Positions 1 to 62,500 of a stretch of 64,000 nt of DNA are shown here, piece after piece; the stretch's first letter is position 1; each line of letters opens with the position of its first letter. The position numbers and the translations under genes are program-made. Source of the stretch: Crossaster papposus (Eukaryota; Echinodermata; Asteroidea; Velatida; Solasteridae); contig JBAIAA010000604.1 of the NCBI GenBank assembly GCA_037893245.1, forward strand, positions 1,364,001 through 1,428,000. Direction: 5' to 3'. The notes under the pieces were generated by a model. It worked only from the letters and a program-made list of their open reading frames with translations. It was not told the DNA's origin and did not search any database.

Positions 1-425
1 TGGGTAACGCGCTCAGCGTGTTGCGAACGCTGGCCTAGCGTTGGTCAACGTTTACCCGCGTGTTGCCGAAATTCCAACACGTTACTCACGCGTTAGCCTA
101 AAACGTTCTGGTGTGACAGGGCCATTACTGTAGTAGCGCGTCGGCTTTTTATACAACTAATCATGTAGTCGTTGCCGTACGCTGGCGCGCGTTGGACCGC
201 GCTACTCACGCGCTGGGCAGTCGTTCATCAATCGTCGAGCGCGTTACTAACGCGTTATTTACGCGCTGGCGAACGCTATGAACCCGTTATCAACGCGTTA
301 TGGACACGCTGAAATCACGGTTCCACTTGACTTTTTCTGTGGAAGTTCAGCGTTTGCCAGCGTATCAACTATTTTTAACGAGCTACTCGAGCGTTGGCCT
401 AAAACGTTCTGGTGTGACAGGGCCA
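1..425. mobile_element. Non-autonomous TIR element, two right ends joined (family 1)
   Basis: Two copies of the same right terminus, ending in TGTGACAGGGCCA, occur at about 85-124 and 390-425. The part from 126 to 425 aligns by eye with 26540-26936. The first terminus therefore looks like one copy that inserted into, or recombined with, another at a CATTA site. The interior is a run of degenerate ACGCGCT/AACGCGTTA units with no coding capacity. The left end lies outside the window. The second terminus interrupts the C-terminal part of a LINE reading frame that continues at 426. Confidence 0.75.
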
Positions 426-1000
426 TTCGTAAACAGTTCTAGATCAACAATAGATCGCAGTGACAGTGGGAGATTGTTCTTAGAGAATGCTCTGTCACCA
501 TATGTCTTTGTTTTTACAATGTTGATTGAGATGTTGGGGGATGATACTATGAGCCAGGTTAACATGTACGGTGCATGTACATCAGTTTTGAGATGTAGGC
601 TTGACACAGACCATGGATAGCTTTGAAGATGGTGAGAATGACTCTAAACTGACGTACGGTGCAATCAGTTTTGAGATGTAGGCTTGACACAGACCATGGA
701 TAGCTTTGAAGATGGTGAGAATGACTTTAAACTGACGTGAGACTGTATGTAACTTAGCAATCGTAGATTGAGGACATGTGTTATTATTATGATCACTCTT
801 ATCTTCTTAGTTCTTGATACCAAACGAGCAGCAGAGTTCTGGATCCTTTGCAGTTTGTCCTTATCTGGAGTTCTCAATAGAAGGCAGATACAACTGTCAA
901 TGCAAGAACTTTAACAAAGGCATGGACTAACACCTCCGTTGAATGACTATTCAGGTACTGGTGCGTACTGCCGATTGTCCTGAGCGCAAAAGAAGAATTC
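426..1000 (-). pseudogene. CR1/L2-like LINE reverse transcriptase, C-terminal remnant
   Basis: Reading the minus strand, 1000-770 encodes a broken version of the region just after the RT domain. The motif KLQRIQNSAARLVSRTKK is visible, preceded in a shifted frame by STEVLVHAFV. At 430-530 the terminal motif TYGDRAFS..LPLSLRSIVDLELF appears. These are typical of the C-terminus of CR1/L2-group polyproteins, where NAARMLTRTRK and YGDRGF..AAPKLWNALP occur, as in the better copy at 52231-54630. Frameshifts, a missing middle and the family 1 MITE at 425 show it is dead. The order and orientation fit one truncated insertion. Confidence 0.65.
566..738. repeat. Tandem duplication, about 85 bp x 2
   Basis: Two nearly identical units begin with GTACGGTGCA at 566 and 654. 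They share the block from CAGTTTTGAGATGTAGG to AAACTGAC with a single C/T difference and a short indel near the start. The duplication lies inside the LINE remnant and separates its recognisable protein blocks. Confidence 0.85.
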
Positions 1001-1807: not shown

Positions 1808-2300
1808 CCCCCCCCCCCCCCCCCCCCCCACACACAAATTAGCCTTCTCGGCGGCCGGGCGGCGATTTTTTTTGCCAATTTCGGCGACCGCTCGGCAGCC
1901 TTTGACCTAGCGGCTTAGATTTTTGACATAAATCGCTCGACGGTGACCGCTCGATTAGCCGCCCGGTCACCGAGCGTAATTTGGGCGGCGAGTGAAAAGT
2001 GGGCAGGCGCCGCCAGAATTCTAACTTCGCGCTAAAACATCAGCGGCGACCGAGCGATGCCCTCAAAACCAGCGGTGCCAGGGTGGCCGCCACTCGGTGC
2101 CCGGGCGAGAGTGGCAAAAAAATTGCCACCCGGCCGCCAAGCAGGCTAATTTGGGGGGGGGGGGGGGGGGGGGGGGGGGAGAGGGGTTGTGACCAAAACA
2201 GCCCGCTCGACTTCTCTAAAAATAGTTAGGCGATGTCTTAATTCTAGCGGCGCCCGGGCAGGCTACAAATCGCTCGGTCGCCGCTCTGATTTGTGACCAC
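1808..2300. mobile_element. GC-rich TIR element with self-similar interior and homopolymer ends
   Basis: A C22 tract at 1808-1829 and a G27 tract at 2153-2179 are part of inverted ends. Next to them lie CAAATTAGCC and its reverse complement, then an inverted GGCGGCCGGG block. The interior is built from degenerate GGCGACCGAGCG units, which continue to about 2300. The 2240-2300 tail has the same motif and may be the end of a second copy. The short open frame across the G tract is low-complexity and not a gene. Confidence 0.65.
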
Positions 2301-4020: not shown

Positions 4021-4023
4021 ACA

Positions 4024-13884: not shown

Positions 13885-13915
13885 AACAATTTGTATGTGT
13901 TGTTGTCATCCCAGG
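13885..13915 (+). promoter_or_regulatory. Probable 3' splice site of a 5'-UTR intron before the GPCR start
   Basis: TGTGTTGTTGTCATCCCAG is pyrimidine-rich and ends in CAG nine bases before the chosen ATG. This decides against the upstream in-frame ATG. The upstream non-coding exon was not found. Confidence 0.55.
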
Positions 13916-13923
13916 TGCCAGCG

Positions 13924-17075: not shown

Positions 17076-17078
17076 CGT

Positions 17079-22986: not shown

Positions 22987-22989
22987 TAG

Positions 22990-43200: not shown

Positions 43201-45511
43201 TCTTGGGCAAGATTCCATAAATATCATACCCAGATCGTTGGCGATTGGTTATACCTTTATTGTCTGCCGAAACAAGTGCTTGCTTACCGAGAACGTCAAT
43301 TCTCCCGTTGTCTCGCAGAATCTCGTCTACCACCGATTTGATCGTCGGTTCTTTGGTCACGTCAAGTTCCCGGATGAAGAGTGTCTTGTTGAGGATGTCG
43401 CCCGCTTCCTTTTCTAGGTTGGATTTTGACTTCATGTTCCTCATTGTCGCGTAAACCTTTCAGGGGAAAGCAGAATGAATGAAACCTTGGAATTGGTGTG
43501 ATGAACATTCTGTACATGATTACAACTAAAAACAACGAAAAAAAGTGAATAATGATCCAACATACTGGGGTGTTACAATTACTGACAATGCATAGTAACC
43601 ATCGAATAATATATTACCAAACAATACTGTCATACAAATTGACCAATACTATATCACTAACCAATAAAGTAACAACAAATCACTGATCTATACGTAACTT
43701 CAAGTTCTACACTATCGGTCAATTTCTGTTACATTATCAGTTAGGCCCGATATACTACATTATAACACCTCACTCACAGATTCTGTGTCTTGATTGGCCG
43801 AGAGCGCGTCACGTGTCACTTGCTATTTTTACTATTTTTTACTTGCGCTCTAAAAAGACACGAGTCACTTGCTATTTTTACTATTTTTTACTTGCGCTCT
43901 AAAAAGACTATACCACGCAGCCTCGTTCTGAAAAAGTACTATGCGCATAGCAACACACGTACTATGCGCATAGCAACGAAAGCGTGACTGAAACCCAGAC
44001 GTGTGTTTCGGTGTATTGCGTAAACATTGCTCTATCACCCTCGCACCCGTTCATCAAGGCAACGTATGACCGAGAGACGTATAATTCGGAGAATTGTTGT
44101 CATTACTATACTTTCAGGAAGCTTAAATTATGCAGAATCTGTGAGTGAGGTGTTATACTATACCACTCAAAGCAGTCAATATTTGTACACTATCGGTGGA
44201 CTTGTTAAAACAAGTCAACCGATAGTGTAGTATACATTTTACTACACTACCAGTCATTGTTTTGTTACATTATCGGTTTAGTGATAGAGTATCAGTCAAT
44301 TTGTGTGACATTATCGGTTGGTGATACCCGTTGGTTTAATGCATGAAACATCATGGGCTAACTCACGACCGCTCGCTTGTTGCGAGCCCAACAAACCACG
44401 ACTGCTGTAGGTCTGACGAGCTACTGGAGTGTCAAACATTAAAGACACTATTTTAATAGCAACCAAAACGACATTGACGCTTTGGTTAGTGCACAGTGTT
44501 AGGGTTAATGCTACGGTAGCCCCATTAGTGTGGCCCCGCTGGGGCTATGTTTAGGGTTGTCATTTTGGTTGCTCTCTTTAAGTGCTTTCCTTTATATTTT
44601 GTCAACTCGTAATGGCATCACAGGCCTATGAAGTGCCCTGAACAAATCATACCCACCGATGTGGTACATTTTTGTTAAAAAGTATCGCAGCCCGGGTACC
44701 GATAACCAGTAAATGACCAACTCCTCCCAGTAATTTGGTTCTCAAAGTGCCCAATCCTTTCGGGTGCCGGTGCTGTCAGCGGCACAACTATATAGGTTAA
44801 ACTTCTAGGGGGTACAAAGTAGCACCAATAGTTCAAGGGGCACCAAAGGCAACTGATTATATCGTGGGTGCAATTCCAGTTTCTAAATGGGGAGGTGCAC
44901 GCCCTCCTGTAGTTACACAACTGGCCGGTGCATGTCATCGCCAGTCTAACCCTTCATGAAACTCAAAGCCCCAGCTATAATGCAAGTACACTAGAATTTC
45001 AAAAGCGAACTAATTGTCCAAAAGTACTAATAGTGGGGCAGATATAGGGGGAATATTTGGGGGAATTGTGCCTTTGGTGATGCAACTTACAATCATAAAA
45101 TTTGGCACCCAGTCCGTGTGTTCTGAAGAAAAAAATGAAAACAAATACAGCTATACCAATAACAAGCAATGGCAGCAATTAACAAACAAAATAAAATTGC
45201 TTGTTATTCTACCTACATGTACATGTTTTCTTCAAAGGACACATCTGCAATGGCCCTATATCCACATATCTTTCCCATGCATGAGATACTATGTGTGCCA
45301 TTCTCTATGATTGTATCGTCAAAGGCACAATCCCATCACCTGTTTGCTCTACTATATAGAAGCGCAATTTAAAGAACAAATGTAGCATTTTGTAGCAGTA
45401 TTATAGTATACCTACCTTGAATCTGTTAAGCTCGTCTTTGGCTAGCACGAGTGCCGTAGCATAGCCAATCCCCGTTGAACACCCAGTAATTAGCACAGTC
45501 TGCAGCGCCAT
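36902..45511 (-). CDS. Short-chain dehydrogenase/reductase, HSD17B1/RDH8-like, complete, 5 exons
   Basis: A classical SDR of 294 residues that should oxidise or reduce a steroid or retinoid alcohol/ketone with NAD(P)(H). The exons 45416-45511, 43288-43456, 41717-41896, 39791-39887 and 36902-37244 join in frame (885 nt with stop). The Rossmann glycine motif TGCSTGIG is at 9-16, KVYATMR (the HSD17B1 signature) at 32-38, LDVT at 63-66, NNAG at 90-93, and the active-site tetrad is Asn115, Ser143, Tyr156, Lys160. These are each one residue off human HSD17B1 numbering. EPGPVKTEL follows the catalytic exon, as in RDH8 and HSD17B1. The substrate cannot be told from sequence. Introns of 1.5-2.6 kb hold MITEs. 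No membrane segment is evident. Confidence 0.93.
37250..38980. other. SDR intron 4, right part, gene-free
   Basis: Contains a T13 run near 37350, a G21 tract at 38352-38372, and frames at 38450-38877 on both strands without a family I recognise. The minus-strand frame near 38686-38877 (APHPRVELNLL) looks protein-like but was not identified; it could be a transposon remnant. Confidence 0.4.
38985..39715. repeat. Self-similar block of GACGCCGTGG units
   Basis: Degenerate GGACGCCGTGGAAACGCC and TCGCCATGGTCGCC units fill this stretch in both orientations. The right edge reads CAGGTGTGACGGGG, resembling the GTCACAMC termini of the other elements; a matching left end was not found. It lies in SDR intron 4. 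Confidence 0.6.
39791..39887 (-). CDS. SDR exon 4
   Basis: Acceptor TTGTTTCCTAG, donor TCAAGTAAGG. Contains the YAATK catalytic pair and FAMEGYSESIAPVL. Phase 1 in, phase 2 out. Confidence 0.93.
40657..41040. mobile_element. TIR element with self-similar AT-rich interior
   Basis: The outer arms are inverted: GAAACTTGTAATGCACC near 40697 faces GGTGAATTACAAGTTTC near 40991, and CAATATTCGTCTATACGG faces GCCATAGACGAATCTTG. The interior (40800-40930) repeats TTTAGAGATA/AATTA units. It is in SDR intron 3. Confidence 0.8.
41045..41710. other. SDR intron 3, right part
   Basis: AT-rich intron sequence. No element or gene recognised. Confidence 0.4.
41717..41896 (-). CDS. SDR exon 3
   Basis: Acceptor TTTTTAATTCAG, donor CGAGGTAAAC. 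Contains NNAG, Asn115 in TNYWG, and the catalytic serine in RIVNVSSMAG. Confidence 0.93.
42030..42272. mobile_element. MITE, GGGCCAATT family, second copy
   Basis: GGGGGCCAATTAAATGAAGC and CTATGAAATTGGCCCC are inverted ends; the interior shares GGTAACC and AAACAGGGTT(A)-type words with 20540-20757 but is diverged. It lies in SDR intron 2. Confidence 0.7.
42274..42504 (+). mobile_element. GGTAGGATACACCAT family MITE, left-truncated
   Basis: It starts directly after the previous MITE and shares GGGCAGTTGTTCTT, TTGGAGCAATTACAAAATATC and ATTATTTACTTTTAAATAGG with the 6059-6414 copy. It ends TATATCCTACCT followed by TTAAGG. Confidence 0.75.
42510..43280. other. SDR intron 2, remaining part
   Basis: Open frames of 66-69 codons on minus have no motif. 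No gene or element was recognised. Confidence 0.4.
43288..43456 (-). CDS. SDR exon 2
   Basis: Acceptor CCCCTGAAAG, donor CTCGGTAAGC. Residues 33-88 plus one base; it starts VYATMRNMKSK and ends GRIDVL. The split Val89 codon (G/TG) joins exon 3. Confidence 0.92.
43560..44330. mobile_element. Outer self-similar element, split by a MITE
   Basis: The left part (43560-43760) and right part (44157-44330) are inverted relative to each other (CAAATTGACCAATACTATAT facing CAGTCAATTTGTGTGACATT). Both are built of TTACATTATCGGT-like units. The MITE at 43761-44156 sits between them. SDR intron 1. Confidence 0.65.
43761..44156. mobile_element. MITE with 25-bp perfect TIRs and internal tandem duplications
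   Basis: TATAACACCTCACTCACAGA (first 20 of 25 bases) is perfectly mirrored at the other end. Inside, a unit of about 50 bp containing CACTTGCTATTTTTACTATT is repeated twice (43812-43909), and ACTATGCGCATAGCAAC is repeated twice (about 43935-43978). Confidence 0.88.
44335..45405. other. SDR intron 1, right part
   Basis: An inverted pair (AGCAACCAAAACGACA near 44460 and TGTCATTTTGGTTGCT near 44560) marks a small 140-bp element. At 45170-45310 a dispersed repeat with CTTGTTATTCTACCTACATG also appears at 61250-61760. Confidence 0.5.
45416..45511 (-). CDS. SDR exon 1
   Basis: Encodes residues 1-32, from ATG through the dinucleotide-binding TGCSTGIG to RFK. The donor AAGGTAGG gives a phase 0 junction. 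The ATG context is ACAAAGATGG (A at -3 region, G at +4). Confidence 0.92.
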
Positions 45512-47494: not shown

Positions 47495-47527
<33 letters not shown>

Positions 47528-48897: not shown

Positions 48898-51800
48898 CTG
48901 AAACAACAACAACAACTTCATCATCATCATTACTGCAGTGTAGGATCAAACTTATGATTGGATTAATAATTACTACTACTTCTAGTAATACATCTAACAA
49001 AATTTACAAATTTGCATCGCTGAGTAAGTAGCAACAATGCATTTGTATGTATTCATGTGGACATTAACCTCAAATTCTCCTTCAATTGTGATCTTGTCTT
49101 TCTTTTTGTACTCGTTCAGTTTCGCATCAGTTTCTGGGTTGACCTAAAAATAAAAGATAAAAAGCCCATTATTATAATTATGAAAGGGAAAAAAAGAAAA
49201 AAAGAGAGAGACCATTATCAATGTAGTGACTATGTACACGTACATCGTTTATTGTTAAAGAATCCTACAACTTACAGTTTTTCTTTTGTCAATGATTTCA
49301 TAACGCAGCGTGCGAAATTCCTTCAGTCCAAATGATCCACCAACAACAATTACCTACAAAAAATCAAAACGTTGTATCATCATTATCCGGTCTCTTCGAC
49401 ACCTTGTCAACTCGACACCTTGCCAACTAGACACACACCAACTCAGCACCTGCACAAAAACCAAGTTGACGCCTGACCAAGTCGACACCGTCGATAAAGT
49501 GACACTATTGAGAAACATCTGTGGCATTTAATTGCGTCAAAGAATTTTGTCCGATTTAATTTTATATCTACCTGACAACGTTAGTTTTTGTAAAGGAAAC
49601 GCAAACACTTATATTTAGTTTTTTCTAAAAAAAATCTAAACAAGAATTCTCAAAAAAATTGTTACGTTTTGAGACGGAGAAACGCTTACAATTAACGTTA
49701 ACGATGTTTGCAATCCGTTCAAACCGTTCTACCACTGCAGAGCACAGATTGTATATAGTAGATGCCCATAATTAGGCCCATAATTAGGAAATAAATTTAG
49801 TTAACTTTTAGCAAATATTTAACCTGCGACTCTCGTCCGGCCGTACCGTTGTGCCGCCTTACGGCCCCGTAAAAGAATTGCCCAAGTTATAGGACTAGTA
49901 TTAGTATTTGGACGCTTTGCTGGCCAAACTAGGTCTCTAGGTTTGATTAACAACAGTAACAGGCATGACAGGTGTGTTTTAATGTTTTTTTATATGTTTT
50001 ACTTTGGGTTAAAATCATTCAGTAGGGCCTAATGAGAGTCCCACATTTTGAGACTAGTTAAATGAGGGCGAAGACGACAAAACACAAAACAAATTAATGG
50101 TGATCACTGTGACGCACGTCGCACAATAAATATGGTGAACACGGTAGACACCACGGACACCAACTGCAAATATATATTTTTTTTCGAAGTGGCTATCGGT
50201 AGTTGAAGATCTGAATCCCTGACGTGCTCGACCTCACATTAACAAAACTCGACCTATTTGATAGTCGGATTCCAAGAGTGAGGTCCAGAGTAATGTATGA
50301 CTAGGTAAGTCGGGGAATCAAATTGCCAACTGCCGTAACGATAGTCACTGTAATTTTTGTTTACGACTAGAATCCGTTAAAAACATTAAAGCGATATTCT
50401 AGTTAAGAGAAGTATTGATACTGGATAAAAGAAAATACTTTTACAATTTTAATAGGAATTTTAATACTACAATTTTAATAGGAATGTGCAGGGAGTTAGT
50501 TCTCGCGGGAATGTAAAATATATATCTACATGTACTTTCGCCTAGTTTACAATTGTTCACGAAATAACAAAACATTCGACCAATTAATAGTGGACCTAGC
50601 ACTGATCCTTGGGGAAATCCGGAGTCGAGAGAATCCCAGTTGGAACTTGTCCCATTTACCTCACAACTCGCTGTCTCCATAAGGTGAAGAAATAAATTAT
50701 CCACTTCAATAGTTGGCCACGGATTCCATACTGTGAAGCTTGGCTTTAAAGCGTTCATGTGGGACAGTATCAAACGCTTTAGAAAAATCGAAGACAGCTA
50801 TATCAACCTGTTGACCAGCATCAACTGCTTCTGCCCAATCATTCACTGCCAAGACGAGCCGAGTAGTACATGAAGGATGTTTCCGGAAAACCGTGTTGCC
50901 TCGGAGTAAGAATGTTATGTTTCTCTAAATGTCTACTGATATGCGAATAAATGATGTGCTCTAAAAGCTAACAACAAATGGACGTTATGCCTCCATCACA
51001 CCAAACTAGTTCTCAATACGTTCTTGAAAATGTTGCCAAACGGGCTCAAACTGTGTGCGAACGGAGTGGACGTCGTAGCAATTGTTTACGGTCTTTTACG
51101 AACTTCATGAACGGGCTCAGACGGGAAGGGTACTCCAGAACTTCGAGCCTACTCAACATTTTCGGGCGGCCATCCCGTTCTGCAATTAGATGGAGTGACA
51201 ACGTACTTAAAACGAGATGGGCGTACTACAAATGGAATTGCCGTATTTCGATCCTACTAGGGACGGGGCTTCGGGATCTTCGGGTACTACTAGTAGTACT
51301 GGCTTCTTTCCCACGGCCCGTTTTCCTGTATCCACTACTCTTTGGATGCATGATGCTCGTAAATGTCGATGTCGAAAATCTTCGAAGTGTTGATCTGCAC
51401 AGGTTGAAGCGGCAAACGCGAATGATGACTGTCAAAAACGCGCTGGGTGTTTATAGCCGTCGGGCCAGGACGCGATTATACAATTGCGTTCAGAACGCTC
51501 TCGGGACGGGGCGAGAACGAGGTGAATTTTCTGGGAACGAAGTGGTCGAGTTAAGAAATAGTTAGGTTAGGCCGTATTAGGAACAAGGTAGAACAAGTTT
51601 AGAACGGGTTTAAACTGACTACGGACGGGCTTGAACTGCTTGGAACGTTATCCGCAAGAGGTGGACGGGCAATTTTATCCGATCTGAACTGGATACCAAC
51701 GAACTGCGGACGGGTTAAAGACGAGATATTGAGGATTGTTTCTGAACGAAGTAGCATCCTATTTATGACATTATTTGGCCAAAGTTAATAATATAATAAT

Positions 51801-54800
51801 ATAAATAATATAAAGCATTTATAATGCGCCATCTATCTAGAGAAAACCTATTCCGAGGCGCAACATAAAACACAAACATGACAAAGGAAAAATAATGAAC
51901 CAAAATAAAATGCAACAATAAATAAAACATAAAGGCAATTCAAGATCAATAATGTGACCCTACAAGATCAAAGAGGATATCACAGTACCAACACACACTG
52001 CCCAGCTGCACATGGCAAACAAGCAAAGAGAGGAGAAGACCAGAATTAGCAGTTACAACAACTTAACAGCAATAACTGATTCCTGCCCGACCAAAATTAA
52101 AAAAAAAATGGCCGAACATACATGTATTAAGGTATGTGTCAGCAATGCGATACCAGAAATCACATTAAAGACATCAAGTAAAAGCTCAAAATGAGTACAT
52201 AAATCACAATAAAATGTTTTGCAAAAACAATCAAATATTATAAGCAGTTTCAAATAAATGAGTTTTTAACAACTTTTTGAAAACATTGATGGAACTACAA
52301 CTGCGAAGTTCGAATGGCAAGGCATTCCAAAGCTTGGGAGCAGCTGCATAAAATCCACGATCACCATACGACGAAACAGTTCTAGGGACAGTCAGAAGAA
52401 TTTTGTCAGCAGATCTCAAAGTGCGTTTTGGAATATATGGAGAAAGAAGTTCATTAATATACACTGGTGCCATAGCATTAAGTGATTTCCAAGTGAGCAA
52501 AAGTAGCTTAAATTGAATTCTTTGACGAATTGGTAACCAGTGTAGTTGTTTCAAAATTGGCGAAATATGATCAAATTTACGAGTGCGGGTTAACATGCGT
52601 GCTGCAGCATTTTGAGCACGTTGGAGCTTTGCCAGTAGTTGTTCATTTATACCATATAATAGAGAATTTCCATTGTCCAATCTCGATATTACCAAAGCAT
52701 GGACTAAAGTAGCTGCTGTATCGTCATCCAAAACTTTACGAATTTGATTAATGTTCCTGATTTGGAAATATGTAGCTTTGCAGACACGTTTGATGTGATC
52801 CTCCATAGATAGCGTGTTGTCAAAAATAATTCCCAAATTACGAGCACTTGGCGAAGCACGAATGGGTGATGACACTATTTGAATAGAGTTGTTTGTGGCT
52901 CTGGATTGAAGGTATTTTGATGTGACTATGATGAGCTCAGTTTTGTCGTCATTTAATTTCAGTTTATTAGAAGTCATCCAAGATTTTATGTCCACAATAC
53001 ATGATTCCATGCGTTTGCGAGTAGCTAGTTCATCTTCGTTGTCATACAAATCAAATGGTAAATACAGTTGCGTGTCATCCGCATACATGTGCACCAGTAA
53101 ACCATGTTTACGAGCAATATTTGCAATGGGAGCTGAGTAAATAGTGAAAAATTGAGGGCCCAGAACAGAGCCTTGTGGGACACCGAAGAGAAACGGGAGG
53201 ATTGAAGATAAACATCCATTTATGTTGACTGCTTGAGATCTATCACTCAAATACGATCTTATCCATTCAAGGGCGCTACCTTTGACACCAATAGATGAAA
53301 GACGTGATAGAAGGACACCGTGGTCTATGGTATCAAAGGCAGCCGACAAGTCCAGTAGCACCAGAAACACACCACGTTTGTTATCCATAGCATGGAGAAT
53401 ATCATTTTGCACCCGTAGCAAAGCTGTCTCAGTCCCATGGTTTTTCCTGTAGGCAGATTGGAATGGTTCGTAGAGATTATTTTCAGAAAGATGATCTGAT
53501 AACCTAGTCGATACTACTTTTTCGATGATTTTTGAGACAAAAGCCACATTTGAAACAGGACGGTAGTTCTTTAGGTTTTCTGAGTCCAATGATGGTTTCT
53601 TAAGAAGAGGTGTAACGAGAGCTGTTTTGAAGCATGATGGGAAAGTGGCCGAGTTCAGCGAGAGATTGACGATCCTTGTGATTACTGGAACAAGTAGACT
53701 AAGATGTTTCTTTAAGAGCCAAGTAGGGATTGGATCAGTATCGCAGGATTTTGGTGGAGATGCATCGATTATTTTGCGAATTTCAACTTCAGTTGCAGGA
53801 AGTAAAACTTCAAGATTGGCAATCGATTTATCATCATCCGTCTGGGGGAAAATTGTGTCATTACTTATGCCAACATCAGCAGAAGTATCGAGTTCCTTGC
53901 GTATTTTGCAGATTTTGGAAATGAAGAACTTATTAAATTTCTCTGCCAGTTCTGCTTTAGAATTGTGAGAGGGAAGTTTAGATTTCCCTTTTTGATGAAG
54001 TAGTTGTTCCACAATCTTAAAAAGTTCTTTCTGGTCTGTACATGTTGATATTTTGTCTCTATAATAAGAAGCTTTGGCATCATTGATCATATTATAAACT
54101 CGTTGACGTTGAGCTTTGAACAGTTCACGATCTATTTCCAACCTGGTTTTCCGCCATTTTCTTTCAAGTCTTTTTCTCAGCTTCTTTGCCTCATCGATTT
54201 CAGGAGAGTACCATGGATTGGAAGGTCGAATTGTGATGCTGCGGGATTTTAAGGGGGCATGCTTGTCCAAAATGCTCGTAAGTGAAGAATTATACTGATC
54301 AACAATATAATCTAAATCTGATGAGGGATCACAATTCAAAAGTGATTGTTCTAGATCAGTAGAGAATTCTGCATGGTCGATTGTTTTCAGCTTTCTATAA
54401 GAAACTTGCTGTTTCATAGGTGGAGGCTTGTCAAGGTTCAACTTGCAGTGAATTGCAGCGTGATCCGTTAACAAACAGTCAACTTTCACAGATTCAACGA
54501 GGTTATCAGAAGCACGTGCAATTATTAAATCTAAAACATGGCCACTAATGTGAGTTGGTGAGGTGACAAACTGTTCAAGATTAGAGACATAAATTATTTC
54601 TTTCAAGTGGTTTGTATCAGGATCAGTCAAAGATTCATAGTGGAAGTTAAAATCTCCAACAATTAGAGGTTACATTTTGATGCAGATAACAAACTAAGGT
54701 AGTCAGCGAATTCTTGAAGAAATACTTTGGGTGTAGTGCGATTTTTCTTACTATATGGTGGTCTATAAATCACAACTAGTTTGATGGGAGAACATGTTCC

Positions 54801-56382
54801 TGGGAAAGTCAAGTCACAGCATAGACTTTCAAAAGATGAAGCGTCATGAGCCGTAGTAGCACCTCTAATGATTGATGACTTGTGTATAATAGATACACCG
54901 CCACCAGGCCTATCAGGGCGGAGTATGTGGTACATATCATAAAGTTACACGTTCTACACCCTGCACAGCCTGTTTTACGATTTTTAAGGACGGAGCAGGA
55001 CGTTTTGAGAACTACTTTGGTGTGATGGAAGCATTAATGACACCGGTCTGTAGTTTGGTGGACTTGTTTTATCCCCCTTTTTGTGAAGTGCCACTATGTT
55101 TGATGACACCTAGTCACCTGGAAGTTCACCAGTTTCTAGCGATTGCTGAAAAAGTCTGGATAAAACTGGGGCAACCTCTTCAGCAGATTCCATTAGGACT
55201 TTAGGTTTTATATTATCCGGGCCACTAGATTTGTTGGTCTTTGTTTCCTTCAGAAGTTAACTCCCACTGGTGATATTTATCTTCAACTACTGGTAACTGA
55301 GTAGGATAAACTAAATTGTTGTAGGGATCTTCCTTTGTGAAGACTGATTTAAATTGGTCTGTTAGAACCTGAGCCTTATTAGCTTCATCTGTAAGGCAGT
55401 ACACACCATTTGTTTTAAAGTTAGAACACCTTGGTTATCATGACGCTTGCTCCTGGTGTATATTCAGAAGACCCTGGGGTTCCCTTCTAAGTTGTCCACC
55501 ATTTTATTGACAAATTTCTGTTGTTCGTTTTCAATTCCTGTTTTACCAATTCTCTGGCAGTTCTGAATTTTCCCCACATGTCAGGGCTCGCTGTTCCTAA
55601 TCTTATTGTTGAATCAGTTCTCTAAATCAGCCTTCGAATGCAAATTGGAGGGGGGGGGGGGGGGGGGGGGCTAGGGGGCCTATAGGGGGCTTTAGCTGAA
55701 CCTTCGTCTACCCCCCCCCCCCCCTCTACCACCACCATAACAAAAACAAGTGCTACATGTAGTATCAAAAGTAATTAGAAGGTGACTTCGCATGCAAATT
55801 GTCTATCCCCCCCCCCCCCCCTTCACAAAAACGGCTCTATAACAAAGTATACATGTACATGTATAGTTTGTTTGTTTCTATTTTGACAATACGAATATTT
55901 TAGTTACAGAAAAAAACAAACCCAGTGTACATGTATACAGAATTACGTATGAACCAAAAAATGCAAAACACATTACAGGCTAAACCCACAATGTTCCATT
56001 TTAGTCCGAACGAAGATGAGCAGATAATTATAAGCCTTAAAGGCCTATACGTTCGCGTTAATCAATTAAGACCCAAGATTACGTTATAACGTAGCGCCAT
56101 ATCCGTATTTATAATAATGTTTAGCCCTCGTAAATCGTATGTAGTCCCCCGTACAACAATGAATGCCGTATGCTGCGCTCGCAACATACATTGTACGCAA
56201 CCAGTGGGGCCATGCCTACTACTATAAAGTATGGATTTTGCAACCGAACGTCATGTCCTGATCCTAACGTTAGCAACTATTGCTAATGTTATTATGGCAA
56301 CACTTACCAACATTGGAAGTCCAAATTTCAAGAATCGACTTTTTTTAATCGAATCCACAATTTTTAACAAGGGCGCCGCCAT
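48757..56382 (-). CDS. COX16: COX16, cytochrome c oxidase assembly factor, complete, 4 exons
   Basis: COX16 is an inner-membrane mitochondrial protein needed for cytochrome c oxidase (complex IV) assembly, acting in copper delivery to COX2 in vertebrates. The gene encodes 122 residues (human 106). The exons 56308-56382, 49276-49353, 49069-49143 and 48757-48897 all join at phase 0. Residues 16-40 form the single membrane segment (KFGLPMLVIVVGGSFGLKEF), followed by RTLRYE, a charged helix with DKITIEGEFEKLQ, and the family hallmark WHNIRGPRPWE. The C-terminal tail is lysine/arginine-rich. Intron 1 is 6.95 kb because of nested transposons; the other introns are short (132 and 171 bp). The start codon is 102 bp from that of MRPS5 on the other strand. 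Confidence 0.95.
49069..49143 (-). CDS. COX16: COX16 exon 3
   Basis: Acceptor TTTTTAG, donor GAGGTTAATG. Encodes VNPETDAKLNEYKKKDKITI and EGEFE. Confidence 0.9.
49276..49353 (-). CDS. COX16: COX16 exon 2
   Basis: Acceptor TTTTGTAG, donor ACTGTAAGT. Encodes the rest of the membrane helix (VIVVGGSFGLKEF) and RTLRYEIIDKRKT. Confidence 0.93.
49397..49505 (+). repeat. Degenerate 16-bp tandem repeat (CGACACCTTGCCAACT)
   Basis: About six units diverging from CGACACCTTGYCAACT lie just upstream of COX16 exon 2. Isolated similar units occur at 56852-56890 and 60262-60300, so this is a local dispersed motif. Confidence 0.75.
49510..50465. other. COX16 intron 1, part without recognised elements
   Basis: AT-rich intron sequence; nothing supported. 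Confidence 0.4.
50470..50984 (-). pseudogene. Older LINE, second half of the interrupted copy
   Basis: With frameshifts the minus strand reads ICC(stop)LLEHIIYSHISRHLEKHNILT, then RQHGF, a broken F(D)FSKAFDTVP-like block, HERFKAKLH, and SGFPQGSVLGPLLIG. These are RT blocks that directly follow the NYRPVSL block encoded at 55037-55080. The two halves belong to one element split by the 50988-55033 insertion. Confidence 0.7.
52231..54630 (-). CDS. LINE ORF2: endonuclease C-terminus, reverse transcriptase, C-terminal domain
   Basis: A 799-residue open frame. The first ~80 residues complete an APE-type endonuclease (THISGHVLDLIIAR, LLTDHAAIHCKL). A linker with LRKRLERKWRKTR follows. RT blocks: LLKKPSLD, NYRPVSNVAFVSKIIEKVV, AYRKNHGTETALLRV, LLDLSAAFDTIDH, GVPQGSVLGP, and catalytic MYADD near residue 515. 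The C-terminal part has NAAARMLTRTRKFDHI and PKLWNALPFELR. No stop interrupts it, so the copy is fairly young. The upstream part at 54663-54935 is one frameshift away. Confidence 0.92.
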   Translation of the reverse strand: MTDPDTNHLKEIIYVSNLEQFVTSPTHISGHVLDLIIARASDNLVESVKVDCLLTDHAAIHCKLNLDKPPPMKQQVSYRKLKTIDHAEFSTDLEQSLLNCDPSSDLDYIVDQYNSSLTSILDKHAPLKSRSITIRPSNPWYSPEIDEAKKLRKRLERKWRKTRLEIDRELFKAQRQRVYNMINDAKASYYRDKISTCTDQKELFKIVEQLLHQKGKSKLPSHNSKAELAEKFNKFFISKICKIRKELDTSADVGISNDTIFPQTDDDKSIANLEVLLPATEVEIRKIIDASPPKSCDTDPIPTWLLKKHLSLLVPVITRIVNLSLNSATFPSCFKTALVTPLLKKPSLDSENLKNYRPVSNVAFVSKIIEKVVSTRLSDHLSENNLYEPFQSAYRKNHGTETALLRVQNDILHAMDNKRGVFLVLLDLSAAFDTIDHGVLLSRLSSIGVKGSALEWIRSYLSDRSQAVNINGCLSSILPFLFGVPQGSVLGPQFFTIYSAPIANIARKHGLLVHMYADDTQLYLPFDLYDNEDELATRKRMESCIVDIKSWMTSNKLKLNDDKTELIIVTSKYLQSRATNNSIQIVSSPIRASPSARNLGIIFDNTLSMEDHIKRVCKATYFQIRNINQIRKVLDDDTAATLVHALVISRLDNGNSLLYGINEQLLAKLQRAQNAAARMLTRTRKFDHISPILKQLHWLPIRQRIQFKLLLLTWKSLNAMAPVYINELLSPYIPKRTLRSADKILLTVPRTVSSYGDRGFYAAAPKLWNALPFELRSCSSINVFKKLLKTHLFETAYNI
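54663..54935 (-). pseudogene. LINE endonuclease domain fragment, one frameshift before ORF2
   Basis: Encodes RPDRPGGGVSIIHKSSI, FESLCCDL and KLVVIYRPPYS, typical of the APE endonuclease. The frame stops at ASKCNL; a one-base shift near 54668 brings in IVGDFNFH and leads into the 799-residue frame. The N-terminal third of the domain is missing by 5' truncation. Confidence 0.85.
55037..55635 (-). pseudogene. Older LINE, first half of the interrupted copy
   Basis: The minus strand reads TNGVYCLTDEANKAQVLTDQ, FKSVFTKEDPYNNLV, SSGPDNIKPKVLMESAEEVA, LFQQSLETGELPGD, then HKKGDKTSPPNYRPVSL, with scattered stops. This is the RT N-terminal region of a CR1-like element different from the younger LINE. 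It ends at the TTA target site. Confidence 0.75.
55640..56300. other. COX16 intron 1, promoter-proximal part with homopolymers
   Basis: Contains G21 (55650-55670), C14 (55711-55724) and C15 (55807-55821). GCAAATTG words precede two of them, suggesting a small repeat. No gene. Confidence 0.5.
56308..56382 (-). CDS. COX16: COX16 exon 1
   Basis: Encodes MAAPLLKIVDSIKKSR and FLKFGLPML, then the donor TTGGTAAGTG. The start lies in CAAGATGGCGGC, a good context that also matches the YY1 site consensus. Confidence 0.92.
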
Positions 56383-56557: not shown

Positions 56558-59500
56558 GTAAGTATCCTTGTGGCACAATGTTTAACTTTCTATAAATCTT
56601 GGGATAAGAATCTTTTCTAAATCTTCATTGGATGATGAGGTAATCGTGGCTGTGTAGATAGAGTCAGAGACATATCGCGAACAGCAAAATATCACAAGAG
56701 GGCGCTGCTGCCCAAAGCATTTTAGGTAAAATCACGGGGCAAAGACGTGGTCGCCGGCCAGCTGGCCACAGCGCTATGCCTTATTTTCTACCCATGATGC
56801 ATTTCGGTTTGGATTACCGATAAACCTTATGTGGGCGATTTAAAAATTGTCACTTCGACAACTAGCCAACTCGACACCCACCAACTCAAAACCTCCGAAA
56901 ACGGGCTTATTGAGGGCGCCCTCAATTGTCACGCGATTTGTTTTGAATTCAGTCTTGACGCAAAGCTCGAAAAGACCCGTGAAATTTCGAGGACATTGCA
57001 AGCATAGCTCAAATAAGGCCATTTAAAATTAATAAATAGGTTTACATCACTAAGATTTCAAAAAATTGGTGTGGAGGGGAATTTATATTTTGTATTTTAT
57101 ATTTAACCCTGAGAATGACTGAAACCGCAAAGCGCTTTTCCCGCCAAAATACATCGTCAATCACTCGGACAGTTAATAAGTTATACATGTGAATATTAAA
57201 TTGAAATAAATTGGAATTGAATTGTATACGTAGCGATCATTCATGGTTTATTAAATAGTATCAATACAGTGTGGCTTGAACACATTGGAATGATAGTCAT
57301 AGTGGAAGGAATAGGGACTACATCTAACATCGTTAGCCACCTGTCCAGCGTGCAGCGACTTGCCCTGTTGACTGACGATCTTTGCAGAGCGCGCTATTGC
57401 ATGCCGTCGGCCACGTGATGCGACTTTTTTGAAGGCGGGTTTTAAAGAAGCGATCACGTACGTCTCCCTACAAGCACTGCATGGCGCGCGCAGTTGTTAT
57501 CGACGATCCTAGACCATCAATTGCATGCACAGAAGTAGAAAAAAACAGTTTTAGAAAAAATATAAAATATAAAAAAATAAAGGGAAGGAGCAAAAAATCG
57601 GGACGGACGGTGATGTAAACCTATTTATTAATTTTAAATGGCCTTATTAAGGCAGCTTGATAAAACACACTCACAGCTTTATGATTGAAGTAATGAAATT
57701 TATGTTTTACCCGTGACATATTGTTTACGTTGCCGCACGATTTCGACAAGTCAAACAAAAATTGTTTAAATGACTGGCGTAGGTGATTCAACAACGATAT
57801 GGTGAAAGGACACAAATATATGCTAACAGTCGTCATAAACGCTGTTAAAAATTTTGTGCAGCTATGCCAAGTTTCGTGAATGGGTCCGTAAGCAAATGGC
57901 GCAGCTAGGCAACTTTTTTGTTGTTGCGAAAGCCTTGTGCAATTTTTGAAAATGACGCAAGATACGCACTTTTTGATGCATTCAGCTGTCAACACCGGTA
58001 CATACAAAACATGTAAACGACCACAGTACTGAGAGCTACTCTCATTGAACAAAGCCACAGATTGAATCTGCTGCATTGGGTGGCCAGAGACTCTGAAGCA
58101 GTTTGGTCTTGACATTTTTGACCTGATAGATTTTACTGCACAGTTGGACGGGGTTGTCACTTTGACAAATGGTGCATCGTGCTGCGTCAGCAGGGTTTCT
58201 CCAGCCAAAATACCCCAGTTAGTAGTAAGCAATATTTACATTTTGTGTTTTTAATATCGAGAGTGTCTTTTCTTTCGAAACTACTCTGCAGGGCTTTCAG
58301 TTCTGAGATGTCATCTTCATCCTACACTTCCAATGTCCTCAGTTGGTATCCACACCTGTGCTTGGTCATCACACACACTGCTACCAGTAGCTACGGTTAT
58401 TGTTGCACCCAGGAGGCACACTAGCTGGTTCAATACATGTAAGTAATAAGGGTGTGCATTGATGGGTAGTTTGGGAAACGGGTACCCGATTACAACAAAA
58501 AACCATGAGTACCCAGATATCCGTTATCCGTTAACCAGTTCGCGCTAGGATTATTTTGACATCACCAAGCCGAGGCGCGAGATTATTTGTAACGAGGTTC
58601 AGGTTGATGATAACAGAAAGCACACTCACGCATTCCCAGCCTTGCTCGCTGCTGACAGACATTCCCGGCCTTGCTCCTGACGTGTTTATGCATCATCCGT
58701 TTTGAATCTGGGAAAACAATTGCGTGTACACAAACACATGTACATGTATGTATGTCCTCCGGCGCGAACTGCATGGTTAACAAAATTTGAGTGGTTTTTC
58801 AGTCCCAGATTCATGTCTTTACAACATTTTTGCACTGATTGACTTTCATTGAGATGATATGAAGGAAAAAACTGTCGGGTTGCAACATTCTTTCCGAGTT
58901 TTTTTCAAAATTTTGCACATGAGACTTGAGAGTAAAGCCACTATGGGCCTTTTCGAAACCGTTGCTTCGTCTTTGGCTTTGGCTTCGCCTCCGAATTCCG
59001 AAATACTGAGAAGCAAATAGAAATAGAAGAAAATTGAAATAGTCTAACTTTTGGGTTCACATAAATCGAGTGAATGTTTCTGAAGTACAACAGGCGTCAG
59101 AATGTGGCTGGAGATCTTGCAGTTGGGAGTCAAAAATCGCCTTAAGCCAAAGACGAAGACGAAGCCAGGGATTCGAAAAGGCCCATAGTTTCATTTTGAA
59201 GACTCAAACTAGACTTGTGCATGTCCGTCTGTTTGACAAGACAGATCTATTCACTGGTCTGATACTGGTACACAGTGTACCACATACATAATTCTTTAGA
59301 CACGGTTGGCTGACTCAGCAAGGTATTTTGGACTGGTTGTTTCATGTGCCAGTCTAATTTCTTGTGTTGCATGTTTTTAATACCTTAACCCTAACCCCCT
59401 AGGCTCTCGCACTAGGAAGCATACCAAACTTAACAAACTTCAACAGCTCACACATGTTCAGTAATTTTTGGTACACTGTACTGAACCTAACAGTACTAAA

Positions 59501-62500
59501 CCTGCCAAACTCCAACAGTTGAAGTTTAATTGACTTGGAACAGTGATAACTGGCCAGTGGTATTATGTGTTTTAGTGGGGACACACATACAAGGTGTAAG
59601 TGTACATACACTTACAGTTGACCAGGAACTGTGCCGTGACAATGTGGGTCACTCACGTATAAATGCCTGTGCATTCTCAAAATTTCTAACATTTTGACAA
59701 GTCTCATGCCTTTCTGTCCTGAACCTCACAGAATTCAACAGGGTCTCCCTGGGCCTTTAGTACTGAGTCAAACAAAGTCTAACAACAAGTTGTTACGGTT
59801 TGGTACCAAACCTGCCAAAACCTAGCGAAAGCTGCAGTTGGAGTTTGGGGTAGTTAGGGTTAAACTAGGTACGGTACATGTACATGTAGGATACACTATT
59901 GGTGAAGCAATTGCTTGAATTATTAGGAATGGGTGGATATGGGAGGTTGTATTTTATAGTAAATATCATTTAACTGACCTGTCTCAGGCTGTCTGAAGTT
60001 TTACAATCATAGATGCTGCGAAAAGAAAGCAAGAAAAACGGCGTTCGTTTTCAATTTGCGTCAGGCAGTTGTTCTTTTTTTGTTTTTTTTGCGAAATTTA
60101 TTTAATTTCTTAATTTTTGTTTTTAATTCAATTTTTCGGAACAATTACAGGAAATTGTAGGATACACCATTGGTAATTGCTTGAATTGAGTATAGGAGTA
60201 GGACAAATGATTTGTCTTGGCTGTGTACAAGTATGTGGGAGATTGTTATGTCGGTCACTTCGACACCTACATGTAGCCATCTCGACACCGACCAAATGTC
60301 CCCATAACGTCATGTACTATAAGAATGTTTGTACCGGTGATATTTTGCGATATAAACAGTCTGGACACCGTGTTGTTTTTATTAAACCTTGCAGTAACGG
60401 CAGACCAACTATGGAAGGGCATGGTAGCAACCACAGGTAAAGCTCAGACCAAGGCTCGAGGAAAGCGACCAGCAAAGAGAATCAAGAAAGATCTCAATAG
60501 AGGACAGTTTATTGGAGAAGGTAAAAAATAATGCCATTTATAATGCATTTATAACATGACTTTTTTACAGACAAATTTAGAATTTAACCTTAAAGCCATG
60601 TTCGTGTACTGTACTTTAGGCAGGCAGACTGGTGCAAAATATGATAGAATTGTGCACTTGATGATAAAAGCATGAAATGTTGCATTCCATGAGAACAATA
60701 TTTGGCTATAGGGCCATCACAGATTCATTCTTTAACCCTAACCCCCTAGGCTCTCGCACTAGGAAGCATACCAAACCTAACAAACTTCAACAGCTCACAC
60801 CTGGTTCAGTAATTTTTGGTACACTGTACTGAACCTAACAGTACTAAACCTAACAGTACTAAACCTGCCAAACTCCAATAGTTGAAGTTTTTTTGACTTG
60901 GTACAGTGATAACTAGCCAGTGGTATTATGTGTTTTAGTGGGAACACACATACAAGGTGTAAGATACACTTACAGTTGACCAGGAACTGTGCCGTGACCA
61001 TGTGGGTCACTCACGTATAAATGCCTGTGCATTCTCAAAATTTCTAACATTTTGACAAGTCTCATGCCTTTCTGTCCTGAACCTCACAGAATTCAACAGG
61101 GTCTCCCTGGGCCTTTGGTACTGAGTCAAACAAAGTCTAACAACAAGTTGTTACGGTTTGGTACCAAACCTGCCAAAACCTAGCGAAAGCTGCAGTTGGA
61201 GTTTGATGGGTTTGGGGTAGTTAGGGTTAAACAAAATATTCATACATGTAGGTAGAATAACAAGTAATGGCAGCCCTAACTGCTTTTTCTAGAAAGTATC
61301 CTGAATCCGTTACAATCCACCAAGTTTGGTTTGCAAAAACTGCTGGTGTCCTGAGTCCATCAGACTCCACCAGTATGCATACTGGAGATATCCTGAGTCC
61401 ATCAATAATCCACCAGCAAAAGTTGATGGACTCTGGCGGATTCAGGATACCATGGTGGTATACAACAAATTGCAGTGTGTTTCTCCATAGAGTCCATCAC
61501 AGTCCATCACCTAAATTTCTGAATCCTGAATCCATCAAACTCCTGCAGTAACGCTAGGCTTAAAATCCTCAATCCATCACACTCCTCCAGTTTGTTCGAT
61601 ATGGAGATATCCTGAATCTGCTCAAATCCTCCAAAACAGGAAATGGATTTTGATGGACTCAGGGTGGATAGGGTTAAAAAGAAAAGAAAATTGCTCGCTA
61701 TTCTACCTATAATTTTCAAAGGACAAATCTATGATGGCCCTATAGCCAAATATTTTTTTCTAATGACATACTTTCTTGACTGTGTGCGAAATTGCATGCT
61801 CTTATCATTTTGATTAAACAATATTTACACCAATCTGCCTACTTGCAAGAAAGTCATGCATTACCATCGCTCCCTGACCTGTATAGTACACATGAAATGT
61901 ACATGTGTACGAGTTTGAACGTTGAGAAAATGCACTTTTTTAAGAACACAAAACATAGGGATCTACTGCGGGAAAAGGCAACACGAATTGCAGATCTCGT
62001 TACGCCCCGAAACCCCTTAAAATTTCATCTTTTGGTTTGTTGACTTATCTCATTTCAAACATCTAGTTGAAAGGAAACCAACGTAATGTCTTACTCTTAC
62101 CGTTCCCCAGAAGAAAAAAAAGAAACGCCGGTTGTTTACATCGGATGCATCGGATGCATACCTTTTTCCTGTCGTTTGTTATCATGTTCATACAATTTAC
62201 GATACAAGTTGTGTGTGTCACATGATTTACACATACAACCAATGCACAAATGTGGTTTCTTACACGTCCGCAAAAGGCAAACACTTTACGACTGGAATCA
62301 CAAGTTTTGGGGTCGCAAAAGTGCACCCCGAAACCTGTTCTACACAAGAATAACACAAAAACGCTTTTTAATGGATGGTTGTGTAAATGTTTATACTCTA
62401 CTTTTAAATGATCTTTCCGATTAACATCTTTTTGTTCAAAACGCGTCTTGTATAAAGCCAATTCGGCGCTTCCAGGACAGCTTCCAGGCAATAGCTTTCA

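Follow-up and report, generated by a model that had tools for sequence, protein, structure and literature searches.

Subterminal Motif Arrays of PIF/Harbinger Elements as the Probable Source of Self-Similar MITE Interiors in Crossaster papposus

Elements and Motif Blocks in the Window

The window analyzed here is a 64,000-nucleotide stretch of the genome of the sea star Crossaster papposus (contig JBAIAA010000604.1, positions 1,364,001 to 1,428,000). It contains motif-rich blocks that a first-pass annotation had regarded as one class of about seventeen non-autonomous elements with inverted ends and with interiors built from degenerate copies of a short family-private motif. The elements and blocks are as follows.

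1..425, minus strand: family A (A1), left end (inverted) of an element of the autonomous A type, cut off at the window start and carrying two TIR copies at a distance of 301 bp
1808..2190, no strand: P, unclassified, with poly-C/G inverted ends and the motif CTCGGCGGCC (inverted arm I11, motif recurrence)
21310..21911, plus strand: family B MITE, motif TACGATTGGT, consisting of the joined ends of autonomous B, about 605 bp
21957..22613, plus strand: C1, an element of family C with the TIR AAGSCCYGGTCACAAC and a tandem run of 11-bp units at 22180-22254
22601..22990, plus strand: C2, a second segment of the C type with helical phase and the right end AAAGCCCCTATCACAC (reverse complement)
24510..24740, no strand: Tz, TTATTACATT motif block, unclassified (motif recurrence)
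26032..26936, plus strand: family A MITE (A2), TAA on both sides, helically phased
27885..28680, plus strand: family H, TIR GGTGGGTTTTCACG, motif GCGACATTCG (inverted ends, motif recurrence, local 11-bp spacing)
28757..30877, no strand: G, long-palindrome (foldback-like) element with nested inverted arms I1, I3, I4, I7, I12, and I15
35150..35490, no strand: X35, AT-rich motif block, unclassified (weak against the order-2 null, 29/200)
35551..36174, plus strand: family D, TIR AGCGCCGGTCACAAC, TTA on both sides, genome pattern matches
38985..39715, plus strand: family E, with helical phase and only the right end present (ATCCCCCGTCACACC, reverse complement)
40657..41040, no strand: X40, palindromic block, unclassified (20-bp repeats)
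43560..44330, no strand: K, TACATTATCA motif block, unclassified, with a 49-bp tandem pair
50988..55033, plus strand: family F, TIR TGCYTCCATCACACC, TTA at 50985-50987 and 55034-55036
59386..59860, plus strand: N1, CCCTAAC ends beside TTAA
60733..61232, plus strand: N2, CCCTAAC ends beside TTAA
61274..61677, plus strand: M, CCCTAACTGC...GGATAGGG then TTAA, motif GAATCCATCA in 13 copies

Ends of the RTCACAMC type beside TAA or TTA are common to families A, B, C, D, E, and F. C1, in which the 11-bp unit is repeated 6.8 times, is flanked by TAA/TTA, and a Tc1-type TA target site, though not favored, may still apply to family C. The TTAA target site and CCYT ends of piggyBac-like elements have possible counterparts in N1 and N2 (CCCTA beside TTAA on both sides) and in M, with TTAA on the right only. 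N1 and N2 are 96.7% identical and carry a 15-bp unit once or twice, and the best 40 scored of 1913 first-look candidates for M are near full-length copies at 95 to 100%, the window copy included. Regarding foldback traits, G has nested long arms and A to F combine short TIRs with motifs in mixed orientation. The limits and inverted ends assigned by the first-pass annotation needed correction at three blocks: 38985-39715 has a right end only, 1-425 is truncated, and 50988-51780 covers the left portion of a family F element of 4 kb, which has inverted arms at 50987-51024 and 54997-55034 and a reverse transcriptase frame inside. Furthermore, 28757-30877, previously listed as a motif-array element, proved to be a long palindrome with nested arms.

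Self-Similarity and Privacy of the Motifs

The 17 annotated intervals were tested as 18 segments, with 21957-22986 split into 21957-22613 and 22601-22990, 1808-2300 shortened to 1830-2160, and 30 bp removed at both ends of every segment. Repeated 7-mers, direct and inverted, exceeded dinucleotide shuffles in 18/18 segments (ratio of observed to shuffled, 2.0 to 15.8), with 0/200 shuffles reaching the observed value, and the self-similarity of the interiors is thereby confirmed. Under an order-2 Markov null, the 7-mer value was reached by 0/200 in 11 of the 18 segments and by one in B, and six segments are weaker (A1, P, X35, D, F, and N1; 6 to 29 of 200). The median 7-mer ratio is 1.17 in 184 non-element 500-bp tiles versus 2.95 in 22 element tiles; a high ratio is also observed in a few background tiles, e.g., 17001-17500, 36251-36750, and 62251-63000. 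When up to 2 mismatches are allowed, a 10-mer recurs more often than in any shuffle in 17/18 segments (20 shuffles per segment, 6 for G; A1 taken as 126-425), including 21 copies versus a shuffle maximum of 9 in A2 and 12 versus 6 in C1, and its recurrence in N1 does not exceed the shuffles (6 versus 6).

The claim that each motif is private to its family largely stands, since motif density is 11 to 39 per kb in the motif's own segment versus a mean of 0.5 to 3.2 over the other 17. The exceptions are the sister copies A1/A2 and N1/N2, cross-matches of 8 to 18 per kb among AT-rich blocks (Tz, K, and G in X35; K in Tz), the C1 motif found in B, and the H motif found in C1. The motif was also said usually to begin next to the TIR. 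This holds loosely: in A2, B, C1, D, F, and H, the distance between the element start and the first copy is 9 to 84 bp, which carries little information because the motifs occur all along the elements.

Autonomous Partners of Families A and B

Autonomous partners with the same TIRs, for which the first-pass annotation had proposed a search, were found for families A and B in the same genome, and both are PIF/Harbinger elements. Autonomous B (locus L102) carries a PF13359 (DDE_Tnp_4) transposase (E 3e-29), both TIRs of family B, and the target site TTA/TTA. A second frame is similar by tblastn to the Myb-like proteins of other families and has no Pfam match. In the window query 21309-21913, positions 1-324 correspond to L102:73-404 (92%) and positions 307-605 to L102:4231-4530 (95%), such that B is, by alignment, a plain internal-deletion derivative composed of the two ends of a 4.46-kb autonomous element joined over an 18-bp common stretch. 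In a search that scored the best 40 of 651 first-look candidates, 42 of the 51 matches listed cover positions 1-604/605 at 94 to 100%. The window copy reads TAA/TTA; a Tc1-type TA target site is not favored, since autonomous B shows TTA/TTA.

Autonomous A is represented by L101 and L104 (PF13359 at E 1e-29 and 7e-32, respectively); its left end carries the A TIRs, the right TIR was not seen in the stretch examined, and a stretch of L101 is similar by tblastn to Myb-like proteins of other families. The blocks of A2 match L101:460-932, 4361-4619, and 336-151, showing its assembly from left and right subterminal parts of autonomous A, and A2 contains a 95-bp internal duplication. Window positions 1-424, where TIRs stand at 116 and 417, match L104:1661-1248 at 91%. 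The layout of 1-425 is not a private nested insertion, since it recurs in the autonomous A left end, and same-strand TIR pairs 301 bp apart are present on C3, C5, C7, C19, C32, and C35 among the first 100 listed places. TWA is the target site of PIF/Harbinger elements; both ends were read at the match in 14 of 28 family A loci, of which 9 show identical TWA triplets, 4 show TAA/TTA, and 1 shows neither, and among the remaining loci 12 have a single end or none, the other 2 being complex.

The repeated motif is also the subterminal motif in A and B, as had been predicted, and fills the subterminal regions of the autonomous elements with the same TIRs: the A2 motif occurs at 20.8 and 17.9 per kb in the autonomous ends versus 0.8 in its own autonomous coding stretch, and the B motif at 27.0 and 18.6 versus 0.0. 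Because the arrays lie beside the genes in the autonomous elements, A and B owe their interiors to inherited subterminal arrays; growth inside non-autonomous elements, as previously suggested, is not supported for them. The first-pass annotation had set descent from unrelated autonomous elements with ordinary interiors against its own reading; this applies in part, the coding interior being ordinary, whereas the partners are related and their ends are array-built.

No match of C, D, E, F, or H was found to the nine autonomous loci compared. By extension from A and B, families C, D, E, and F are presumably PIF/Harbinger MITEs as well.

Arrays in Other Autonomous Loci

Motif arrays adjoin the genes in 9/9 loci inspected, representing eight transposase families. 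They occur on both gene sides in six loci (L061, L101, L102, L103, L105, and L106); in L104 and L108 they are clear on one side, and in L107 they are weak. Some raised tiles in L103, L105, and L108 are coding or simple repeats. The arrays extend some 300 to 800 bp between the TIR and the genes and comprise a motif of about 10 bp in both orientations. Five other PF13359 clusters from the first transposase search were rejected as partners, with no clear RTCACAMC-type end in the flanks examined. Among one representative of each (1.5-kb flanks), an array was found in L034, one raised tile each in L044 and L057, and no array in L029 and L055.

The autonomous element R (L061:199-4854, 4656 bp) has the perfect TIR AGGGTCCGTCACACC and both genes, encoding a DDE_Tnp_4 protein (E 9e-16) and a MADF protein (PF10545, E 4e-7). 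Its target site is TTA, since the empty Q copies L062-L065 join with a 3-bp overlap (4/4). Repeated 7-mer pairs number 94 in the first 300 bp (null 10) and 40 in the last 300 bp (null 8.7), and 1 to 22 in tiles between the two ends. Among the matches listed for a piece of the R transposase, 27/150 are at 99 to 100%. The second protein of U matches PF10545 just under the cut-off (E 4.6e-4), no Myb-like match was obtained by tblastn in L104, L106, and L108, and a PDB search with the R Myb-like protein gave no match. Between families, transposases are 46 to 67% identical versus 22 to 35% for Myb-like tblastn matches.

Helical Phase of the Arrays

The autocorrelation pooled over nine segments, two of them from family A, peaks at multiples of 10.5 bp, with a power of 13.6 at this period versus a background maximum of 3.3 at 10.5 and 4.9 at any period (300 resamples). 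At lags 60-120 the pooled value is 6.1 versus a block-permuted maximum of 3.1. Individually, A2 (10.4), C2 (8.6), and E (7.2) are phased at 0/300 block permutations each, as are the autonomous A 5' and U 5' ends (power of U, 20.4), and in family A all copies tested, 13 from 28 loci, are positive (3.1 to 10.4). In 20 sampled ends, which represent only three families, the phase is 9.2 inside and 0.7 outside the element, and 4.1 and -0.2 with one representative per family. Long-range phase is not significant by block permutation in B, D, F, and H (H, 86/300) and is weak in S and T; no 10.5-bp phase was found in P, Tz, G, K, X35, X40, M, N1, and N2 (at most 2.8, in N2), and X35 has a power of 4.6 at 11.0. 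The A/T steps are phased in A1, C1, C2, and E (3.1 to 8.0), and the phase is accordingly not confined to CG steps. Two non-element stretches of the window also score (3951-4350, 5.6; 16751-17150, 5.0), and the R coding control has a mild signal (7/300).

The best period is 10.25 to 10.8 in phased arrays, and the pooled best is 10.55 to 10.65 in lag bands up to 120 and 10.74 over lags 8-200; because best periods vary, part of the arrays may simply be repeats of 10 or 11 bp. Palindromic centers showed no 10.5-bp phase in B, C1, D, and E, and whole turns were not clear among indel lengths between family A copies, where many pairs are misaligned.

Interpretation and Rival Explanations

These results point, with a probability of about 0.75, to the RTCACAMC-ended elements being animal PIF/Harbinger MITEs whose array ends are putative binding sites of a Myb/MADF-like protein. 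In this mechanism, loss of the coding middle fuses the two arrays into a MITE, in B with breakpoints between similar array stretches. The second Harbinger protein, the Myb/SANT (MADF)-like factor, would probably bind the arrays, and many sites would provide affinity and specificity. The spacing of about 10.5 bp would place the sites on one helix face, suited to cooperative binding; the phase may be needed for this and may be under selection. The privacy of the motifs would follow from the divergence of the Myb-like protein, which is much faster than that of the transposase.

Alternatively, slippage or repair within non-autonomous elements might have expanded the arrays as degenerate minisatellites that play no part in binding. 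Tandem runs within elements (11 bp x 6.8, 22 bp x 2.4, and 32 bp x 2.5), the gain or loss of a 15-bp unit that sets N1 apart from N2, and the 95-bp duplication within A2 agree with such growth, which is retained for families with no known autonomous partner. However, the arrays are already present in autonomous elements, B is a simple deletion derivative, and motif orientations are mixed; furthermore, a fixed 11-bp satellite should peak at 33, 44, and 55, whereas the pooled values without the tandem-bearing C1 are 4.6 at 31, 0.4 at 33, 4.2 at 42, -0.6 at 44, 2.6 at 52, and -0.9 at 55. We consider this origin unlikely. A similarly low probability is assigned to the phase being a nucleosome-positioning or DNA-curvature signal instead of a protein-specific site array. 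Its period equals the helical repeat, pooled SS (10.2) and WW (7.2) steps are also phased, with WW in A1, C1, C2, and E, two non-element stretches score 5 or more, and GC effects on mPing transposition were tied to nucleosomes by the authors in the part of their article consulted (PMC9921582). By contrast, the unit that repeats is a 10-mer largely private to its family, A2 has a WW power of 0.4 versus 16.9 for CG, the signal disappears beyond 120 bp, and other self-similar blocks reach at most 2.8 at 10.5 (N2), with X35 at 4.6 at 11.0.

A single new structural class of shared origin, uniting all 17 blocks, can hardly be upheld. All blocks are self-similar with largely private motifs, but ends and target sites differ, with at least two end types (RTCACAMC beside TWA and CCCTA beside TTAA, the latter in N and M), and G is a long palindrome; the differing ends rule out a single class. 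Nor do A and B lack a standard name, as had been supposed, since they are PIF/Harbinger-derived MITEs in the ordinary sense.

Returning to the binding-site reading, a more tentative extension, which we hold somewhat less probable than not, is that the Myb-like protein assembles cooperatively as a spool along one DNA face of phased arrays of tens of sites, joining the ends, and that family-specific codes diversify with this protein and keep families orthogonal in one genome, with MITEs as almost pure array. On the binding-site reading itself, self-similar MITE interiors would be a readable record of a DNA-binding code, with motif, spacing, and orientation testable per family against its own protein, and a genome with many parallel PIF/Harbinger families, several of which have near-identical copies, would make the co-evolution of a fast-changing Myb-like protein and its sites measurable. 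Since the deletion leaves the arrays of both ends, MITEs may keep the sites needed for mobilization.

Comparison with Known Systems

The likeness to PIF/Harbinger elements comprises the TWA site, a DDE transposase with, in R, a Myb/SANT-MADF protein, and deletion-derived MITEs. In the portions of the literature consulted, the PIF/Harbinger target site is given as 3 bp (PMC9710019), the Myb-like protein of zebrafish Harbinger3_DR is described as recognizing a 9-bp subterminal motif (PMC9710019; see also PMC2836001), and mPing of the rice Ping/mPing system as a deletion-derivative MITE (PMC9921582). Compared with Harbinger3_DR and Ping/mPing, the subterminal motif here forms many-copy arrays, some 300 to 800 bp long, that are largely private per family and in several families helically phased. 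Literature searches for a named equivalent, in the text portions available, returned no description of multiplied, private, helically phased PIF/Harbinger subterminal arrays.

Related architectures occur elsewhere. Subterminal repeats are exemplified in CACTA elements by the En/Spm TnpA sites. The CACTA "complex arrays of subterminal repeats" (PMC4423477, in part) are alike, although superfamily, ends, and target site differ. Galileo and other P-superfamily foldbacks of Drosophila have long internally repetitive ends with several THAP-transposase sites proposed to give specificity; however, they belong to another superfamily, the repeats lie in long TIRs, and the part of the article consulted describes three sites and no helical phase (PMC3688188). 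As far as the consulted text goes, the non-autonomous Tetris foldback of Drosophila virilis has internal tandem repeats proposed to derive from duplicated end sequence, in 220-bp units versus 10-bp motifs in both orientations here (PMC4079207). In hAT Hermes, according to the portion consulted, additional DNA-binding domains recognize short motifs at fixed positions, but the sites are concentrated near the tip, and the authors found putative sites beyond the first 50 bp unneeded, though other internal sequence mattered (PMC10368747). For the short interrupted repeat cassettes (SIRC) of Arabidopsis, the part consulted proposes a MITE-interior origin of short repeats, which differ in being direct only, with no autonomous partner shown (PMC10342631). 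From similarly partial texts, coral CMITEs, with conserved interiors and piggyBac-like (PMC2872659), and Merlin elements with internal tandem repeats, of another superfamily (PMC8101967), were rejected as equivalents.

Ends and Classification of the Elements

The first-pass annotation had united about seventeen non-autonomous elements of the window into one class with self-similar interiors. The self-similarity is real, but distinct kinds were lumped together, as their differing ends and the palindromic structure of block G indicate. When aligned, the ends of families A to F agree in a terminal pattern leading into RTCACAMC beside TAA or TTA (a single end is visible in family E), and the blocks are sorted as follows.

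Blocks of the window sorted by their ends
1-425 (A1) and 26032-26936 (A2), family A
21310-21911, family B
21957-22613 (C1) and 22601-22990 (C2), family C
35551-36174, family D
38985-39715, family E
50988-55033, family F
27885-28680 (H), ends GGTGGGTTTTCACG
28757-30877 (G), long palindrome
59386-59860 (N1), 60733-61232 (N2), and 61274-61677 (M), CCCTA ends with TTAA
1808-2190 (P), 24510-24740 (Tz), 43560-44330 (K), 35150-35490 (X35), and 40657-41040 (X40), unclassified blocks

Instead of an identical triplet at each end, B (21307-21914), C1, and 4 of the 14 family A copies in which both ends were read (L011, L012, L027, and L028 among the loci elsewhere in the genome) have TAA at the left and TTA at the right; the reverse order was found in none of the 14. 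The site resembling that of B in locus L034 reads TTA.

The family F element contains a reverse transcriptase-like frame (52231-54630, minus strand, 799 aa), judged from its translation to be presumably a LINE-type enzyme, and a retroelement has apparently inserted within this Harbinger-like element. A long intronless frame (13891-15342, 483 aa) is taken, likewise from its translation, to encode a muscarinic-receptor-like GPCR; because of these two frames, the window looks like animal DNA. Family D is adjoined by a nested near-perfect palindrome (36179-36665; arms of 74, 48, and 48 bp, 90 to 100%), and its left flank resembles a second hairpin repeat (48223-48404). A 14-bp tandem array of 9.9 copies (62468-62604) is linked to no element, and long G or C homopolymers, some 20 to 30 bases in length or longer, are numerous (2153-2179, 23264-23289, 31768-31793, 38352, 45828, 47475-47526, and 55656).

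Self-Similarity of the Interiors

The seventeen intervals were analyzed as 18 segments. Repeated 7-mers exceeded shuffles of the same dinucleotide content in all 18 (0 of 200 shuffles reached the value in each), which bears out the claimed self-similarity, and a 10-mer (two mismatches, both strands) exceeded every shuffle in 17. Six segments (A1, P, X35, D, F, and N1) were weaker when an order-2 Markov null was used, with the value reached in 6 to 29 of 200. The motifs are largely family-private; some cross-hits occur, most of them connecting AT-rich blocks with one another or linking B, C1, and H.

Autonomous Partners and Origin of the MITEs

Families A and B, the best-studied members, are PIF/Harbinger MITEs, and their interiors are inherited subterminal arrays. 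In the 1.02-Gb assembly, the 29-base end of family A occurs 3279 times forward and 3326 times in reverse (up to two mismatches; reversed control, 0), AAGSSCCGGTCACAMC 173 and 162 times (control, 0), and TTAAGSNCCNGTCACACC 192 and 174 times (control, 0); places are known for the first 100 matches of each pattern. For family B, 40 of 651 first-look candidates were scored, and 42 of 51 matches listed run the length of the 605-base query (94 to 100%).

The element in locus L102 has a transposase between two family B TIRs and is flanked by TTA left and right. The 605 bp of family B correspond to L102:73-404 (92%) joined to L102:4231-4530 (95%), and 18 bp (B positions 307-324) match both sides of the deletion, which therefore ran between similar stretches within arrays. 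L101 and L104 carry the family A left end and a transposase, an open 444-codon frame in L104; no right TIR was found in the parts of these loci examined. A2 consists of three autonomous A blocks: the left subterminal (72% to L101, 75% to L104), the right subterminal (90%), and the inverted left terminus (88%). Since B and A2 were assembled from autonomous parts, growth by motif copying, proposed earlier for all interiors, is not needed for A or B, which derive from the ends of autonomous elements; unit duplications do occur in elements.

Furthermore, a 4656-bp element with perfect TIRs, R, sits within an element of family Q in L061. In all four Q copies without R (L062-L065), the halves join at a 3-bp TTA overlap, the empty site. 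R codes for a MADF protein and for a DDE_Tnp_4 transposase, the latter split into at least two pieces. Among 150 matches listed of 960 candidates, a protein search with one transposase piece gave 27 at 99 to 100% identity, including R, as well as several related groups. L103 (family U) and L105-L108 represent five more transposase families. One transposase match lies within an open frame of a reported 12957 aa (G000:C1288:90670-91176), and three stand in tandem, 2770 bp apart, in G000:C964:182907-189001; these are possibly tandemly amplified Harbinger elements.

In R, 7-mer self-similarity pairs number 94 vs. 10 in the first 300 bp and 40 vs. 8.7 in the last 300 bp; intervening tiles have 1 to 22 vs. 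about 5 to 8. Arrays flank the genes on both sides in L061, L101, L102, L103, L105, and L106; L104 and L108 have a clear array on a single side, and that of L107 is weak. Transposase tiles are mostly near background, and other raised tiles of L103, L104, L105, and L108 are in part coding or simple repeats. Five other PF13359 clusters were sampled through one representative apiece and its 1.5-kb flanks. An array is present in L034 (ratios 6.4 and 5.3), L057 and L044 each have a single raised tile (11.5 and 3.8), and L029 and L055 lack an array within these flanks. The array at L034:280-400, of CGACAGTGGGAACC-type repeats, adjoins the transposase, and similar sequence surrounds B in the window (about 21280-21309 and 21912-21950).

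Helical Phasing of the Arrays

The autocorrelation combines nine segments of the window (A1, A2, B, C1, C2, D, E, F, and H; A1 and A2 are a single family). Peaks at 11, 20-22, 31-33, 42, 52, 62-64, 72-75, 84, 95, and 105 lie near multiples of 10.5, the value at lag 33 being due to C1; the signal is absent past lag 120. Power at 10.5 is 13.6 (13.1 without C1); in 300 resamples of nine out of 71 background tiles, it never exceeds 3.3 for that period or 4.9 for any period at all. Shuffling blocks of 22 to 42 bp removes the phase (lags 26-60, 8.1 vs. a maximum of 4.0; lags 60-120, 6.1 vs. 3.1). Scanned 400 bp at a time, the window has its top scores mostly inside elements; 3951-4350 (5.6) and 16751-17150 (5.0), outside the listed elements, also score. 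A phase of 10.5 holds for the palindromic centers of A1, A2, C2, F, and H (best for H, 11.5) and not for those of B, C1, D, and E.

Individual families were tested by 300 block permutations in 22 rows, given as raw counts uncorrected for the number of rows. None reached the value for A2, C2, E, autonomous A 5′, and autonomous U 5′ (power 20.4); counts were 3 for Q, 5 for R 5′, 7 for A 3′, 8 for R 3′, 12 for C1, 14 for autonomous B 3′, 23 for T, and 28 for S, the last two being further families. Phase did not reach significance for B (49), F (67), H (86), autonomous B 5′ (100), and D (117), and coding controls gave 7, 21, 42, and 56. Phase is kept in all 13 family A copies tested, chosen from 28 loci (3.1 to 10.4). 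Across 20 sampled ends of S, B, and T, it is 9.2 inside and 0.7 outside (4.1 and −0.2 with one representative each); this signal stems from T and S, and none from B.

Proposed Role and Comparison With Known Systems

Between families, transposases are 46 to 67% identical and Myb-like matches 22 to 35% over 50 to 254 residues (tblastn); tblastn gave no Myb-like match in L104, L106, and L108. By eye, the closest cross-family motifs are those of A and R, whose transposases are also the closest (67%), in a single comparison. The simplest reading of these sequences is that the motif arrays are predicted sites for the Myb-like protein, and the phase suggests that such proteins would bind cooperatively along one face of the helix. 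A precedent comes from zebrafish, where a 9-bp subterminal motif is read by the Myb-like protein of Harbinger3_DR (PMC9710019; compare PMC2836001). Both the size of these arrays and their helical phasing appear novel: no account of them turned up in narrow queries of the open-licence literature on mechanism and repeat structure.
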